Assembly: GCA_019358945.1 (NCBI GenBank) | Contig: JAHHIE010000002.1 | Span: 248,001 to 312,000, forward strand | DNA: 64,000 bases | Origin: Stenomitos rutilans HA7619-LM2 | GTDB lineage: Bacteria; Cyanobacteriota; Cyanobacteriia; Leptolyngbyales; Leptolyngbyaceae | Direction: 5' to 3' | Shown here: piece by piece, positions 52,615 through 63,744 of the stretch | Position numbering within the stretch: the first letter of the stretch is position 1 | Layout: every line of letters starts with the position of its first letter | Position numbers and translations under genes: made by a program | Notes under the pieces: model-generated | Seen by the model: only the letters and a program-made list of their open reading frames with translations | Database searches by the model: none | What the model was told of the DNA's origin: nothing

Positions 52615-52896
52615 CTAATGTGCTCCACACCAGTCAGGACACTCACTTTCACGCTCCCAACCGTAGGGATGAAATCCACAAATTAGCGGCGTGCGAGCTT
52701 CACGGCTGTACCCATACGTCACACCGTGATAGTTTGTACAGCCAGTACATGGTTTCGGTCGGGTGGGGGCCACATCAGTAAAGCCTAGTTGCGATCGTAG
52801 AATATGCCGTTTACTCTCCTGCCGATGCCACTTGGCATGATCAGCTTTCCGAAACAGATAATGAATCTTCCCAAACGGGTACTGCACAGAGTCCAT
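52615..52896 (-). CDS. Small Cys/His-rich protein, unknown
   Basis: A 93-residue soluble protein. The C-terminal half has PCTGCTNYHGVTYGYSREAR, LICGFHPYGWE and ECPDWC, a Cys/His pattern (CxxCxxYH, C.FHPYGW, CPDW) that could bind a metal or Fe-S cluster. I recall similar short cyanobacterial proteins with this CTGCxNYHG and HPYGW signature, without assigned function. It lies directly upstream of the ABC exporter on the same strand, 22 bp from the exporter frame, so it may be co-transcribed. Confidence 0.65.
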   Translation of the reverse strand: MDSVQYPFGKIHYLFRKADHAKWHRQESKRHILRSQLGFTDVAPTRPKPCTGCTNYHGVTYGYSREARTPLICGFHPYGWERESECPDWCGAH

Positions 52897-58261: not shown

Positions 58262-58468
58262 ACCATACAGTGCAGAAGCTGATTGACTGACAGAACTCCT
58301 GAAAGGCTGATGGCTCCGTTGCTCACCCGCCCGTGATGAAAATCTGGGTGACGGTATGAAACGCCTACAGAGGACTTTCTTCTGTGAGCCAGGACTTCTA
58401 TGCAGGGCAGGACAGGTGATCGCTCAAAGATTTGTCAGTCAAGGGTAGAAGCGTGCTGGCAGAGCCCA

Positions 58469-58933
58469 TTATGGTAACAAAAGCATTGCGTTGGTGATCA
58501 TTTGAAGCGATTGAGGGGATAGCTCAATCTCAACACCCGCCTCACCTGCGCCGATCAATATAGTTGGAGAGTCCATTCAATGCCGATTCATCAGGACAGG
58601 AATTGAATTGGCCCCGATGGGAGAAACACCATTGGGAGGATAATGGAGTAACTCTAAAAGAGCCGTCCTCTCTACTATTTGCAACCGTTTACAACCAACC
58701 TGCTCAGCAACCTGGTGCAAATTTAAGCGCGTCTCGATCGGAGCAACCACCAGACAACGGTATTCTCGGTCTTTTGTCTCCAGCAATAACGTCTTTGTAA
58801 TGCGAGAAAGCTCGTAACCCAACGCTTGAGCAACGTCTTGAGGGCTGCGAATTGGTATCAGCAAGTCCTTGTGAATATGCACTTGATAGGGAGTTTTGAA
58901 CTCATCCAGAATTTTTTGGATGCGATCGTGCAT
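58469..58933 (-). pseudogene. YbaK/ProX-type aminoacyl-tRNA deacylase, interrupted by TGA
   Basis: YbaK-like proteins hydrolyse misacylated tRNA such as Cys-tRNA(Pro). From the ATG at 58933 the frame reads MHDRIQKILDEFKTPYQVHI, LGYELSRITKTLLLETK and PPNGVSPIG, then stops at TGA (58577-58579). The same frame continues past the stop with MDSPTILIGAGEAGVEIELS to TAA at 58469-58471, exactly the missing C-terminal strands of the family. The full frame would have about 154 residues, the normal family length. The most economical explanation is a single TGG- or CGA-to-TGA change; readthrough is possible. It lies directly after the DUF6875-like gene on the same strand. Confidence 0.8.
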
Positions 58934-58967
58934 AACGGCTACTCTGACGCTTAAAGCTGTAGACAGG

Positions 58968-59714
58968 TTACCCAAACGCTCGTGCTAAACGAGCAAAAGG
59001 ACATTTGCTGACCTTAGGTGCGGCTAAGTAGTCTTGTGGAATCGTGACCGGATGACCTTGGGCAAGTTGCGCCTGTGCTAGTGCCAGTGCTTTTCGGGCA
59101 TGGCTAAGCTTCGCTTCATCCTTAATGATGGAACTCATGCGTTCTAAATACGCTTGCAGATATCTCACTCGAAGTTGAGGTTGGTCGCTCATGCGCTCCA
59201 GGAAGGGAAGGTCTGACTCTGCCATAAACCGAATAGCCAACATTGGAATCGGGCTGCGTAGAGGGCGGAAATGGGGATTGTGCAGCCCCGGCGTTTCATT
59301 CTGCTGATGAAACTCGCCAATCATGAGGCCCTGCTCAACAAAAAAGGGCTTGAGCTTCTGCTGCACAGCATCGATGAGTTCAGGTGCTTGCTCAGGGGAA
59401 ACGTCTGGAAAAACAAGCATAATTGCTTTATAAAACGCCATTTCTCCGCTTTGAGGCTCTAGCTCTAAAAACTGATCGCGATAACGGCGAACAATCTCTT
59501 CAATCTGAGATTGACCCATTGCTTGGGTACGGATGACCGCTAACCGAATCGTATCAAGTTGTAAGGCACGGGGCACAAACGGACAGACAGGCCCCGATCG
59601 ACCTAAGTCAGGATGAGGTCTCCCCAAAAAATTTTTGACCCACTCTGTCATTTCAGTGAAGTAAGCCAAATCTGGCTGAAGCTGATCGAGATCAGCAGGT
59701 GCAAAAAGCTGCAT
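58968..59714 (-). CDS. DUF6875-like protein, unknown
   Basis: A 248-residue soluble protein. Distinctive features are WVKNFLGRPHPDLGRSGPVC, PFVP, AIMLVFPDVSPEQAPELIDA, GLMIGEFHQQNETPGLHNPH and FRPLRSPIPMLAIRFMAESD. This is the pattern I associate with DUF6875; the assignment is from memory and moderate. I do not know a reaction for it. It is divergent from the A-T-TE synthetase and separated by 417 bp. The conserved Cys-Pro-Phe and His-rich segments could suit a catalytic role, but that is speculation. Confidence 0.6.
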   Translation of the reverse strand: MQLFAPADLDQLQPDLAYFTEMTEWVKNFLGRPHPDLGRSGPVCPFVPRALQLDTIRLAVIRTQAMGQSQIEEIVRRYRDQFLELEPQSGEMAFYKAIMLVFPDVSPEQAPELIDAVQQKLKPFFVEQGLMIGEFHQQNETPGLHNPHFRPLRSPIPMLAIRFMAESDLPFLERMSDQPQLRVRYLQAYLERMSSIIKDEAKLSHARKALALAQAQLAQGHPVTIPQDYLAAPKVSKCPFARLARAFG

Positions 59715-60131
59715 GCTCTTAAGTCCGTAGAACGTTAACGGTTTAGTGCGTCAGGCTGAGTAGCGCTTCGCCAGGTCAAAAAATTGACTGCTGGAGAATG
59801 AACTGTTAGCTGGTAGGCACAAAAAACACTGCCGCTAGCAAAACGTAGCGAACATGGTACTGACACCGTCTGGAGCGTTCATCACATCCCCATTGATTGA
59901 CTTAGAAGGCTTATCGAAATAACTTGAGAAACTTTCGGGGAAAAGTTAGCTCAACGTAGACATCCTAGATATTCTTTTGGGCAATTTATGGGTACAGATT
60001 GGCTCGTTTGTTGAGCGATCGCCTACGTGCGATTGCTTTGATTGAACAAAACTTTATGCACTATTGCGAACAATAAAGTTTGAACAAATTTGAAGGCGAA
60101 ATGACTGCCAAACCAGGGCAGGAGTGAAACG
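59715..60131. other. Divergent regulatory region upstream of the synthetase
   Basis: It holds the promoters of the minus-strand DUF6875-like gene and the plus-strand synthetase. GAGTAGCGCTTCGCC near 59757 is a fragment of the dispersed palindromic repeat. The compact direct/inverted repeat at 60042-60088 lies just before the synthetase start. Confidence 0.5.
60042..60088. promoter_or_regulatory. 47-bp element: 9-bp direct repeats outside 7-bp inverted repeats
   Basis: TTGAACAAA (60042-60050) is followed by ACTTTAT (60051-60057), 15 bases, ATAAAGT (60073-60079) and a second exact TTGAACAAA (60080-60088). The inner arms are perfect reverse complements. It could be a regulator operator or the scar of a very small mobile element with its target duplication. 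It ends 43 bases before the synthetase start codon. Confidence 0.65.
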
Positions 60132-62879
60132 TTGGGTAATAAGAGGCCGTTGCCAAATGTGAAGATGGAGCGAAACAGTATGCAATGGGAAGAACAGCCA
60201 TCGGGTGGCCTTCTGACAACCGATCGCCAGACGCGACCTTCCATGAGGCAGGGTATCCGTATTGATACCAACCAGGCTACATGTATCCATCTTTTGTTTG
60301 AAGCGCAGGTGGAAAAAACACCTGAGGCGATCGCGGTTGTCTTTGAAAACCAAACCCTCACCTATTGGGCGTTGAACCAAAGAGCCAATCAACTGGCACA
60401 CCAACTGATCCAGCAAGGAGTTGGCCCTGAAGTACTCGTTGGCATTTGTGTTGAACGCTCGTTAGAGATGATTGTCGGATTGCTCGGTATTCTTAAAGCG
60501 GGTGGAGCATACGTGCCGCTTGATCCCGCCTACCCAGCAGAGCGTTTGGCATTCATTTTGGACGATACTCAAGTACCTGTCATTTTGACTCAGGCACATC
60601 TGGTAGACAGCCTGCCTGCCTCCCCTGCTAAAGTTGTCTGCTTAAACTCAGATTGGGAGGAAACGCGCCAAACTACTTTAAAAAATCCCAGTGGACGAGC
60701 GATCGCCAATAACCTGATGTACGTGATCTACACCTCAGGCTCAACGGGCAAACCAAAAGGGGTCATGATTCCCCATGTGGGTATCTGGAACCAACTTTAC
60801 TGGAGACAAACTACTTTTTCCCTCACACCAGCAGATCGAGTTTTACAATCTATTTCCTTCAGCTTTGATCCATCTGTTTGGCAAATCTTTTGGCCGTTAT
60901 CGTTCGGGGCGCAGCTAGTCTTGCCAGTTCCAGGTGGGCAAAAAGACCTTGTCTATCTCATCCAGTTAATGGCTCAGCAGCAGATCACTGTCATGGCATT
61001 GGTGCCTTCTATGCTGCGTGCATTACTAGCCCAACCATCGATTGCTCAATGCACCTCCTTAAAACACGTCTTTTGTGGCGGAGAGGCGCTACCGTCTGAG
61101 TTGATTGAACAGTTTTATCAGCGCTTTCGGCCCAGTACGCTGTTACACAATGTGTATGGGCCAACTGAAGCCTCGATCGACGCGACGTTTTGGACGTGTC
61201 AACCTCACTTCACTCATCAAATTGCTCCTATCGGTCGGGCGATCGCCAACACGCAAATCTATATTCTTGACGAACGCCTTCAACTTGTAGCGTCTGGAGA
61301 ATCCGGTGAGCTACACATTAGTGGTGCCGGGTTGGCTCGTGGCTACCTCAACCGTGCCAATCTAACGGCTGAAAAGTTCGTTTCTCTACACAGCAATCAA
61401 ATCAATGCCCGTCTCTACAAAACGGGAGATTTGGCACGTTATTTGCCCGATGGCAATGTTGAGTTTCTGGGGCGAATTGACCATCAGGTGAAAATCCGGG
61501 GTTTTCGGATTGAGTTAGGCGAAATTGAAATTGCGCTCAAGCAGCATTCTTTGCTGACTGAAACTGTGGTTGTTGCCCGTGAAGATTCACCAGGAAACCA
61601 TCGTTTAGTAGCTTACGTCGTGCCATCTGAAGCAGCCGTGCCAACGACCGCTGAGTTACGCAGCTTTTTGCAGGAAAAGCTTCCTGAATACATGGTGCCC
61701 TCTGCCTTCGTTGTGCTCAAAACCTTGCCCCTAAATGCGAGTGGTAAGCTCGATCGCCAAGTTCTGCCGGCCCCAGAATCAGAAGTTGCCTTAGATAACG
61801 CATTTGAAGCACCTAAAGATGCTTTAGAAAATGATTTAACACAGCTTTGGGAGCAGATTCTAAACGTCCGTCCGATCGGGGTGAAAGACAACTTCTTTGA
61901 ATTAGGGGGAGACTCTCTGCTAGCAACCCGCGTCTTGGCCCAAATTGAAACGATGCGCGGACAAAAACTACCGTTAGCTGTCTTTCAGGAAGCAGCAACG
62001 GTAGAAAACCTGGCTGAGTGCTTACGGCGGCAGGATTTAACCATGACCCAAAAGCCGCTGGTTGTGATTCAACCGCATGGGATCAAACCACCTCTTTTCT
62101 GCATCCACTCCAGAAACCACCATGTGTTGAATTATTTCCCACTCGCGCGCCATTTGAAACCCGATCGACCTGTTTATGGGTTACAACCGCGTACAACAGA
62201 TGTTAGTCTCCTCTCCAAGCTCTCGGTTGAAGAAATAGCCGCTGACTATATCGAAGAGATACGAGCACTTCAGCCGAGCGGCCCTTATTTTTTATTGGGC
62301 TATTCCTTTGGGGGTTTAGTTGCCTATGAAATGGCGAGACAACTTGCCGCTCAAGGGGAGCGCATCGCCCTACTAGCGATGGTTGATACCTACAATTTGA
62401 GGAAGCCGTGGTTCAAGCGGACACCAACCTACCTTAATATGCTCAAACGATTGCCCATACATCGGGCTGAGCTAAAAAAGCGCCGCTTGAAGGAAAAAGT
62501 GCACTATGGCTGGAAGGTACTGACGCAGGAAGTTCAGAAAAATTCAGACGGTCAATCATTGTCTTTGGCTCAACAGCCTAGTCCTGAAATTGTGATGCTC
62601 GAAGCCGCTTATGAGCAGTTGGTGAAAAACTATGTTCCTCAAACCTATCCGGGACAGATTACTCTTTTGAAAGCGGTTCGTCCACCTGAGGCAGCGCAGC
62701 GTTTGATTTCCGATAGGATTGATGCCTTGTTAGGTTGGTCGAAGCTAGCTGATAGCGTTGAGGTTTATGAGTTGCCGTGCAACCATTTTAATGTGGTCTT
62801 CGAGCCTTTTGTTCAGCTTTTAGCAGAAGGGCTACAGATTTATCTTGATTCAGCTCAAGGTGAGGACGCGATCAATTGA
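60132..62879 (+). CDS. Single-module NRPS-like enzyme (adenylation-carrier-thioesterase)
   Basis: A 915-residue protein without a condensation domain. The adenylation domain (about 50-545) has LMYVIYTSGSTGKPKGVMIP, VYGPTEASIDATFW, ISGAGLARGYLNR, YKTGDLARYLPDGNVEFLGR and KIRGFRIELGE; its A10 motif has NASGKLDR. The carrier (about 560-640) has the phosphopantetheine Ser in DNFFELGGDSLLATRVL. The thioesterase (about 655-905) has GYSFGGLVAYEMAR (Ser about 725), Asp in MVDTY and His in CNHFNVV. The position-235 Asp (FDPSVW) indicates an amino acid rather than a keto acid substrate. Start TTG has AGGAG seven bases upstream. Likely product: a released or dimerised amino acid derivative (inference). 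Confidence 0.88.
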   Translation: MGNKRPLPNVKMERNSMQWEEQPSGGLLTTDRQTRPSMRQGIRIDTNQATCIHLLFEAQVEKTPEAIAVVFENQTLTYWALNQRANQLAHQLIQQGVGPEVLVGICVERSLEMIVGLLGILKAGGAYVPLDPAYPAERLAFILDDTQVPVILTQAHLVDSLPASPAKVVCLNSDWEETRQTTLKNPSGRAIANNLMYVIYTSGSTGKPKGVMIPHVGIWNQLYWRQTTFSLTPADRVLQSISFSFDPSVWQIFWPLSFGAQLVLPVPGGQKDLVYLIQLMAQQQITVMALVPSMLRALLAQPSIAQCTSLKHVFCGGEALPSELIEQFYQRFRPSTLLHNVYGPTEASIDATFWTCQPHFTHQIAPIGRAIANTQIYILDERLQLVASGESGELHISGAGLARGYLNRANLTAEKFVSLHSNQINARLYKTGDLARYLPDGNVEFLGRIDHQVKIRGFRIELGEIEIALKQHSLLTETVVVAREDSPGNHRLVAYVVPSEAAVPTTAELRSFLQEKLPEYMVPSAFVVLKTLPLNASGKLDRQVLPAPESEVALDNAFEAPKDALENDLTQLWEQILNVRPIGVKDNFFELGGDSLLATRVLAQIETMRGQKLPLAVFQEAATVENLAECLRRQDLTMTQKPLVVIQPHGIKPPLFCIHSRNHHVLNYFPLARHLKPDRPVYGLQPRTTDVSLLSKLSVEEIAADYIEEIRALQPSGPYFLLGYSFGGLVAYEMARQLAAQGERIALLAMVDTYNLRKPWFKRTPTYLNMLKRLPIHRAELKKRRLKEKVHYGWKVLTQEVQKNSDGQSLSLAQQPSPEIVMLEAAYEQLVKNYVPQTYPGQITLLKAVRPPEAAQRLISDRIDALLGWSKLADSVEVYELPCNHFNVVFEPFVQLLAEGLQIYLDSAQGEDAIN

Positions 62880-62898
62880 ATTCAATGGCTCGATCGCA

Positions 62899-63744
62899 TT
62901 AGGAGGGCAAGGGGACAGATGGCACGGCTTTCGTTTCCAGCGCCGCAACACTACGACGAGTCGCTTCTACAAAACGGCTGACCCGAATAGGATCGATCGG
63001 CTGTTCGCGGCGACCATGCCGCTTGAGGGATGTTGATGCAATCACGCCGTTCGCCGCCTGCATCAAGGTTGAAATATTCTCCCAATCGGCACCACTCCCG
63101 ATCAAAACAGGTGTGCCATTGGCCGCAGCGGTGGCGAGTTCTAAATCTTCCAGATTGGGTGGACTTCCCGTAGCCCAACCGGACAGAATCACGGCATCGG
63201 CCAAACCGCGCTCGATCGTGTCTTGCACGGCAACTGTCAAATTGGGCGAACTCAGCGGACGAGCGTGCTTGACCAATACATCCGCAAAGATTTTGACATC
63301 GCTGCCCAACTCACGCCGATAGCGGAGCAATTCATGGGCATTGCCTTCAATGAGGCCCTGATCGGTCGCCATCACCCCTGTGAGCACATTGACACGGATA
63401 AATTGGGTTTGGGTGCAGGTCGCGATCGCTAGTGCACTTCGTGCATCATTTCGCAGCACGTTAAGGCCGATTGGTAAGGTCACCATCTGCTGCAAGCGAT
63501 GCACGACGAGGGTCATCGCACTGACTACAGCCGGATCGACATGATCCTTGGGAAAGGGTGCATCAAAAAAGTTTTCGACAATGATGCCATCCACACCACC
63601 CGAAGCAAGAGCAGTCGCTTCCTGTTCGGCGCGATCAATGACAGTCTTCAGGCTGCCGCCCCAGAGTGCCGATGTGGGCAACGGGAGTAAATGGACGACA
63701 CCAATAATCGGATTCGGAGTCTTGAAAATTTGAGTTAAGTCCAC
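62899..63744 (-). CDS. btpA: BtpA, photosystem I biogenesis protein
   Basis: BtpA is a thylakoid-associated protein needed to accumulate photosystem I reaction-centre proteins in Synechocystis. The sequence shows the near-complete family pattern: TPNPIIGVVHLLPLPTSALW, QEATALASGGVDGIIVENFF, GLNVLRNDARSALAIA, FIRVNVLTGVMATDQGLIEG and VILSGWATGSPPNLEDLELA, a TIM-barrel-like protein. A GTG at 63744 gives (M)DLTQIF, as in relatives, and 281 residues; a TTG at 63825 would add 27 unlike residues. It is convergent with the synthetase, ending 20 bp away. Confidence 0.93.
   Translation of the reverse strand: MDLTQIFKTPNPIIGVVHLLPLPTSALWGGSLKTVIDRAEQEATALASGGVDGIIVENFFDAPFPKDHVDPAVVSAMTLVVHRLQQMVTLPIGLNVLRNDARSALAIATCTQTQFIRVNVLTGVMATDQGLIEGNAHELLRYRRELGSDVKIFADVLVKHARPLSSPNLTVAVQDTIERGLADAVILSGWATGSPPNLEDLELATAAANGTPVLIGSGADWENISTLMQAANGVIASTSLKRHGRREQPIDPIRVSRFVEATRRSVAALETKAVPSVPLPS

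Follow-up and report, generated by a model that had tools for sequence, protein, structure and literature searches.

The window analysed here, a stretch of 64,000 nucleotides from Stenomitos rutilans HA7619-LM2, contains a divergent gene pair consisting of an NRPS-like gene with adenylation, thiolation and thioesterase domains (A-T-TE) and a gene encoding a DUF6875 protein (Table 1). The open frame of the former, 60132–62879 on the plus strand, counts 915 aa from a TTG codon, with the in-frame ATG at 60180 (899 aa) being a likelier start of the gene than the TTG at 60132.

Table 1. Features of the A-T-TE/DUF6875 locus, in window coordinates
Feature	Position	Strand	Basis or remark
A-T-TE NRPS-like enzyme	60180..62879	+	open frame with TTG from 60132
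Adenylation domain core (AMP-binding), code DPWAFGVID	60297..61349	+	Pfam 1.7e-93; residues 56-406 of 915-aa ORF
Adenylation domain C-terminal part (AMP-binding_C)	61521..61748	+	Pfam 2.4e-13; residues 464-539 of 915-aa ORF
Thiolation domain (PP-binding)	61833..62024	+	Pfam; residues 568-631 of 915-aa ORF
Thioesterase domain	62091..62879	+	Pfam 1.2e-21; from residue 654 of 915-aa ORF
DUF6875 protein, proposed heme amino-acid oxygenase	58968..59714	-	Pfam; structure model; Cys44 invariant in 11 divergent members
YbaK/EbsC-type aminoacyl-tRNA editing gene, overlaps DUF6875 end	58577..58975	-	in-frame TGA, stops early
Inverted repeat AAACTTTAT / ATAAAGTTT	60049..60081	.	divergent intergenic region

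A chance origin of the 60132–62879 frame was excluded by its Pfam domains, by homologues in relatives and by dN/dS, which was 0.145 for the A-T-TE gene when compared with that of G006, a genome of the same genus whose A-T-TE protein is 79 % identical. The Pfam scan detected no condensation or oxidase domain in the frame, confirming a preliminary description made from the sequence, and the oxidase domain that interrupts the A domain of indigoidine-type synthetases (A-Ox-T-TE) is thus absent here. In an alignment of 22 A-T-TE proteins, the phosphopantetheine Ser column of the T domain was Ser in all 22, the TE Ser column was kept in 21, and the candidate Asp and His columns were kept in all 22; in the window protein the core motifs, the carrier Ser and the TE Ser/Asp/His are all intact. 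The genome gave one match for a phosphopantetheinyl-transferase and seven for TIGR01733, the amino-acid A-domain model, with the A-T-TE protein alone passing the cut-off of the latter. No RNA element was found in window positions 58400–63000 at E 0.1.

The preliminary description had also raised the possibility of a condensation domain encoded elsewhere that always co-occurs. Searches with PF00668 (condensation) gave no matches in the host genome (7.28 Mb, 99.9 % complete), while as a control the profile gave matches in 4 of 14 reference genomes, and no condensation domain was found in G006. A canonical C domain is therefore not available to the A-T-TE enzyme in these two species, yet this is not the rule, as C domains were present elsewhere in the genome in 13 of the 14 A-T-TE-bearing genomes searched (the exception being G006). 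The A-domain clade of this enzyme, termed A* below, is also found in A-T-C-A-T-TE and larger NRPSs with C domains, likewise beside DUF6875. The C-less enzyme is thus one of several forms taken by a wider family.

The pocket columns of the window A domain read D-P-W-A-F-G-V-I-D at nine positions, reproducing the earlier reading, and the tenth residue, the Lys of motif A10, was K in 22 of 22 aligned A-T-TE proteins. We take these columns to correspond to the PheA positions on the basis of motif anchors; the choice of columns is supported because the same columns in other domains return what we take to be Gly, Pro, Ser and Gln codes. Neither the DPWAFGVID-type codes, in ten-letter or shortened variants, nor DVRHFAL had a match in the literature searched, which agrees with the earlier statement that the code lacks a known counterpart. 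The closest code is DAWQFGLID, presumably a Gln code, which differs at three positions, with the fourth residue being smaller in DPWAFGVID, while DVWHISLID-type codes are assumed to be Ser-type. The Asp read at the last code position is, we assume, unlike aromatic codes. A* was defined as the A-domain type with the code DPW[AGT][FTS]G[VC]I(D), and the first code residue was Asp in every A* domain read. Asp at this position, which is that of the amino group, points to an amino acid substrate and not to a keto acid; an amino acid is therefore favoured here, and the alpha-keto acids of fungal A-T-TE enzymes are disfavoured.

The divergent neighbour, described earlier as DUF6875-like, matched PF21780 (DUF6875) with an E-value of 6.5e-67 (225.5 bits against a cut-off of 24.5), and its dN/dS against G006 was 0.068. 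DUF6875 is no longer a family without a described function, as heme-binding proteins that oxidise tryptophan are reported for other members in the available portion of a 2026 paper (PMC13307353). ZigI ('cytochrome P422'), from the same portion of that paper (PMC13307353), shares its Pfam family with the window protein; it acts in a terpenoid cluster, whereas cyanobacterial DUF6875 travels with an NRPS A domain. Cyanobacterial DUF6875 proteins were 33–43 % identical to the non-cyanobacterial members, Lysobacter excepted. Among 11 divergent DUF6875 proteins, Cys44 was invariant, His34 was present in 10 and His136 was variable; the designation P422 would be more in keeping with His than with Cys as the heme ligand. 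The KinJ heme family was considered as a relative and rejected, as no link was seen in the accessible text of PMC12154649.

An AlphaFold2 model of the DUF6875 protein (49 alignment rows, pLDDT 87.8) was compared with known structures. Structures of AglA, described in the available text of PMC12866846 as a heme-thiolate enzyme that hydroxylates an arginine derivative and has Cys44 as its heme ligand, occupied Foldseek ranks 1–5 (E 0.011–0.038, TM about 0.35), with rank 6 at E 0.27. As in AglA and its YqcI/YcgG relatives, a conserved Cys follows the first helix of DUF6875. The best superposition on AglA had a Z of 8.5 and an rmsd of 4.0 over 140 residues at about 10 % identity. AglA structures reached Z 7.8–8.5, while the chains that came next, which are unrelated, scored 5.7, in a comparison that covers the listed chains, so that families outside the list may fit too, and with a tool that regards a best Z of 7–8 as typical where there is no clear match. 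Profile comparison of DUF6875 with eight YqcI/YcgG proteins gave a non-significant probability of 0.9 %, with both conserved cysteines aligned together. PF08892 (YqcI/YcgG) had no match in the DUF6875 protein or in genome G000, and the DUF6875 sequence profile had no credible match in the PDB. With a Z near background, a TM of about 0.35 and a profile probability of 0.9 %, the likeness of the modelled protein to AglA is a hint at the fold level.

With the hydroxylase of an arginine derivative as the best structural match, and a code that ends in Asp and resembles what we take to be the Gln code, arginine or another polar amino acid, and not tryptophan, could be the substrate of both proteins. 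We consider this improbable, given that PF08892 itself has no match in DUF6875. The family-level literature found on DUF6875 speaks of tryptophan alone, as far as the available portion of the paper goes (PMC13307353).

To examine the linkage of the two genes, GTDB genomes were scanned with a DUF6875 alignment and the best 80 of 200 relatives were kept, of which 79 were cyanobacterial and one was from Lysobacter; the counts in this paragraph refer to these best 80 of 200. An NRPS gene lay within 0.8 kb of DUF6875 at 40 of the 79 cyanobacterial loci, comprising 21 A-T-TE genes, 15 multimodular NRPSs and four genes cut by a contig end (L070, L079, L134 and L135). No NRPS was found within 0.8 kb at the other 39 loci, with L082 having one about 4 kb away, and at some of these the NRPS may also have been cut off, as one flank is short in 9 of the 80. 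All 38 readable adjacent NRPS genes carried the A* code, in L135 cut at the last letter, the genes of L070 and L079 being too short for the code to be read. Among the 36 adjacent NRPS genes not cut in the A* region, A* was the first module in 31 and the second in five (L102, L110, L127, L128 and L137). Some of the partner modules of A* in multimodular NRPSs have codes that we take to be Gly or Pro codes. A second A-domain type, DVRHFAL[LM]A, recurs with A* in the multimodular NRPSs of L075, L081, L093, L123, L126, L127, L130, L132, L136 and L137.

The conservation of the DUF6875 neighbour across genomes had been proposed as a check, and the A-T-TE/DUF6875 pair was found to be kept across many cyanobacterial genera. 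In 16 listed loci the other flanking genes look unrelated, as judged by eye from the sequence starts. As the pair is conserved and its flanks look unrelated, a two-gene pathway is plausible. The minimal pathway put forward in the preliminary description is strengthened to this extent, but the same A-domain clade also occurs in multimodular NRPSs.

Co-occurrence was then considered independently of gene order. Among 386 genomes sampled from the phylum, 11 had DUF6875, and all 11 hold A*. Of 30 matches taken from the A* search of these 386 genomes, 10 had the A* code and all were in DUF6875 genomes, in a search that scored four candidate domains per genome and could miss A* in a DUF6875-less genome; the eleventh DUF6875 genome, G161, has the A* code in its linked gene. 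The other 20 matches, each from a different DUF6875-less genome, read DVWH.SL.D, DAWQFGLID, DVWNFGFVD or DAWSFGLVD. As a second control, all or up to 23 candidate domains were scored in each of 39 relatives. The three best full-length matches were in G000, G006 and G022, which are those with DUF6875; in 12 other relatives, none of which has DUF6875, the best matches had other codes. Eleven genomes with DUF6875 but no adjacent NRPS were searched whole (G412, G104, G309, G201, G159, G406 and those of L082, L133, L094, L119 and L066), and 10 had the A* code elsewhere, in one of them as DPWAIGCID. In the remaining genome, that of L066, the top-scoring domain was 53 % identical and had another code; two contig-edge fragments with 66 and 62 % identity suggest that a gene was cut by the assembly. 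DUF6875 was also found in 4 of 58 relatives, including G418, which is an exception in that it lacks A* (best match 43 %). The DUF6875 of G418 (L145, 1426–1980, plus strand) is short and divergent (184 aa). The association of DUF6875 with the A* domain is real. This suggests that A* may be specific for the product of DUF6875, for which a tryptophan-like substrate is the leading guess; oxidised tryptophan is favoured solely because of the family literature on DUF6875.

In a phylogenetic tree of 83 A domains, from which the Gln-type domains (DAWQFGLID) were left out, 45 of 45 A* rows fell on one side of a branch with an SH-aLRT of 95; L012 and L016, with codes of the DVWH.SL.D type, adjoined them. 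Twenty-one A-T-TE rows formed one group (support 100) among the multimodular rows, and two further A-T-TE rows, L047 in G406 and L096, were placed elsewhere. In Nostocales, the multimodular NRPSs found next to DUF6875 (e.g. those of L099, L123, L126 and L137) have an orthologous A* of the same clade but, unlike the window A-T-TE, also have C domains and at least one additional module. The same flanking genes, as judged by eye, enclose an A-T-TE of 919 aa in G406 and an A-T-C-A-T-TE of 1994 aa in G104. Module loss, from multimodular NRPS to A-T-TE, would be the simpler direction. The position of the A-T-TE group among multimodular forms, the shared syntenic site in G406 and G104 and the truncated YbaK gene adjacent to the pair here would also fit a decaying remnant, in which the A-T-TE was left over when a dimodular NRPS lost its C-A-T part, and makes nothing now. 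This is very improbable, because the gene is full length with a dN/dS of 0.145, its catalytic columns are kept in 21–22 of 22 proteins and the 21 A-T-TE rows are one supported group.

The YbaK/EbsC-type gene follows DUF6875 in the host genome, G006 and Elainella and was not found at E 0.01 in the other cyanobacterial loci scanned. It encodes 132 aa here, compared with 168 in G006 and 157 in Elainella, and because of the early in-frame stop may be non-working in this genome. The gene is possibly an accessory of the pair, although this is uncertain; that it removes tRNA mischarged with a new amino acid is speculative. The 8-base arms of the inverted repeat between the divergent genes are kept in G006 and Elainella, making the repeat a possible candidate operator. 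Elsewhere in the window, a 93-aa ORF (52615–52896, minus strand) has a Cys-containing motif and differs from an ORF of G006 (L044, 2085–2366) at one of its first 60 residues.

DUF6875 occurs in several other settings in other bacteria. In two Rhizobium plasmids (L142, 8875–10177; L161, 5875–7175) it is followed by a YbaK/EbsC gene with no adjacent NRPS, which appears to be a DUF6875–tRNA-editing association of an independent kind. In Lysobacter psychrotolerans (L138, 9833–12046, plus strand) DUF6875 forms a fusion with a flavin monooxygenase that among NCBIfam models matches VioC best, though below the cut-off, and lies inside an NRPS cluster in which one of the adjacent NRPS genes ends in a reductase-type domain. 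The Streptomyces plasmids L140 (7011–9579) and L162 (5876–8537) have DUF6875 preceded by a hypothetical gene and, before that, a gene resembling PLP decarboxylases, the PLP decarboxylase family search covering L140 alone. The L140 neighbours were considered as kynureninase and kynurenine monooxygenase and rejected, as they instead match PLP decarboxylases and rifampin-type monooxygenases. Annotated tryptophan-biosynthesis genes lie 4–8 kb from DUF6875 in L140, and together with the VioC-like fusion of L138 they provide weak support for indole chemistry. In a further Streptomyces plasmid (L163, 7878–15778), the DUF6875 gene and the beginning of an NRPS gene (2396 aa, codes DLGIGGEVV and DVHNAGEVW) overlap, adjoined by a TauD-type dioxygenase gene; as these codes are not of the A* type, the link between DUF6875 and NRPSs extends beyond the A* clade.

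Taken together, we give about an even chance to a two-gene cassette for oxidation, loading and release. DUF6875 would oxidise one amino acid, most likely an aromatic, tryptophan-like one, and the A domain of the A-T-TE would adenylate the oxidised amino acid, as suggested by co-inheritance and the shared code. The T domain would hold it as a thioester and the TE would release the product without a condensation domain, whether by coupling two copies, closing a ring, passing the residue to a small nucleophile or hydrolysing the thioester. The multimodular versions of other lineages would incorporate this residue into short peptides. Should DUF6875 work on the free amino acid, simple hydrolysis by the TE would be futile, and the TE must then do something else.

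Hydrolysis would have a purpose if oxidation took place on the carrier, a logic followed by nikkomycin- and novobiocin-type A-T/P450/TE sets. The A domain would then load an ordinary amino acid, DUF6875 would oxidise it on T and the TE would hydrolyse off the free oxidised amino acid, which fits the co-inheritance of DUF6875 and A* equally well. We regard this as a real but minor possibility, because A* has a non-standard code of its own, unlike that of a common amino acid, and because DUF6875 stands without an adjacent NRPS in the two Rhizobium plasmid records and at several Streptomyces plasmid loci, indicating that the family needs no carrier protein.

The NRPS-like enzyme of shinorine synthesis has the A-T-TE architecture. 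In the manner proposed for that enzyme, a MysE-like TE could pass the activated amino acid to a small acceptor made elsewhere, with DUF6875 acting on the acceptor or later. This is quite unlikely here, as DPWAFGVID differs from the nearest Ser-type domains (DVWHISLID), no mycosporine gene was present among five neighbours scanned and the multimodular homologues that share this A domain would make peptides instead. The shinorine enzyme of Anabaena variabilis is, in the available part of PMC3252866, a component of a four-gene mycosporine cluster, which shows that C-less NRPS-like enzymes are known in cyanobacterial mycosporine synthesis. Both it (as described there, PMC3252866) and the window enzyme are thus cyanobacterial and C-less, but the latter has a code that is not Ser-type and DUF6875 as its partner.

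A further comparison is with the fungal non-reducing NRPS-like enzymes such as AcyN, which share the A-T-TE order and the absence of a C domain and, according to the accessible text of PMC9047271, use aromatic alpha-keto acids, with the TE doing the joining. They differ from the window enzyme in that every A* read has Asp at the first code position and in that the partner here is DUF6875. The cassette of oxidation, loading and release could be extended accordingly, in a version that we hold to be tentative and rather doubtful: the DUF6875 heme oxygenase would make a non-protein amino acid, the A-T-TE would join it to itself, for example as a dimer, diketopiperazine or lactone, the enzyme would have arisen from dimodular NRPSs by module loss and the linked tRNA-editing gene of some lineages would keep the new amino acid from being misused in translation.

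Searches found no literature on the A-T-TE/DUF6875 pair, although the P422 preprint may cover part of it, and nothing tied to the pair in work on heme/tryptophan hydroxylases, mycosporine NRPS-like enzymes, cyanobacterial A-T-TE enzymes, tRNA editing and self-resistance or Nostoc hydroxytryptophan peptides. The new element here is that an A-T-TE enzyme of the NRPS-like kind has a proposed oxygenase of a new type as its partner. An A domain without a literature match for its code is linked to an emerging heme-enzyme family, which turns the question of specificity into a direct test with the DUF6875 product. One A-domain clade also provides a natural series of A-T-TE, A-T-C-A-T-TE and longer enzymes, with a monomodular and a dimodular form sharing one syntenic site, that is useful for studying the origin of C-less synthetases and the capabilities of a TE on its own. 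If the extended version is true, the pair would be a complete two-gene natural-product pathway with a non-P450 heme oxygenase, and its synthetase would correspond to the A-T-TE enzymes of fungi while using an amino acid where these use keto acids.
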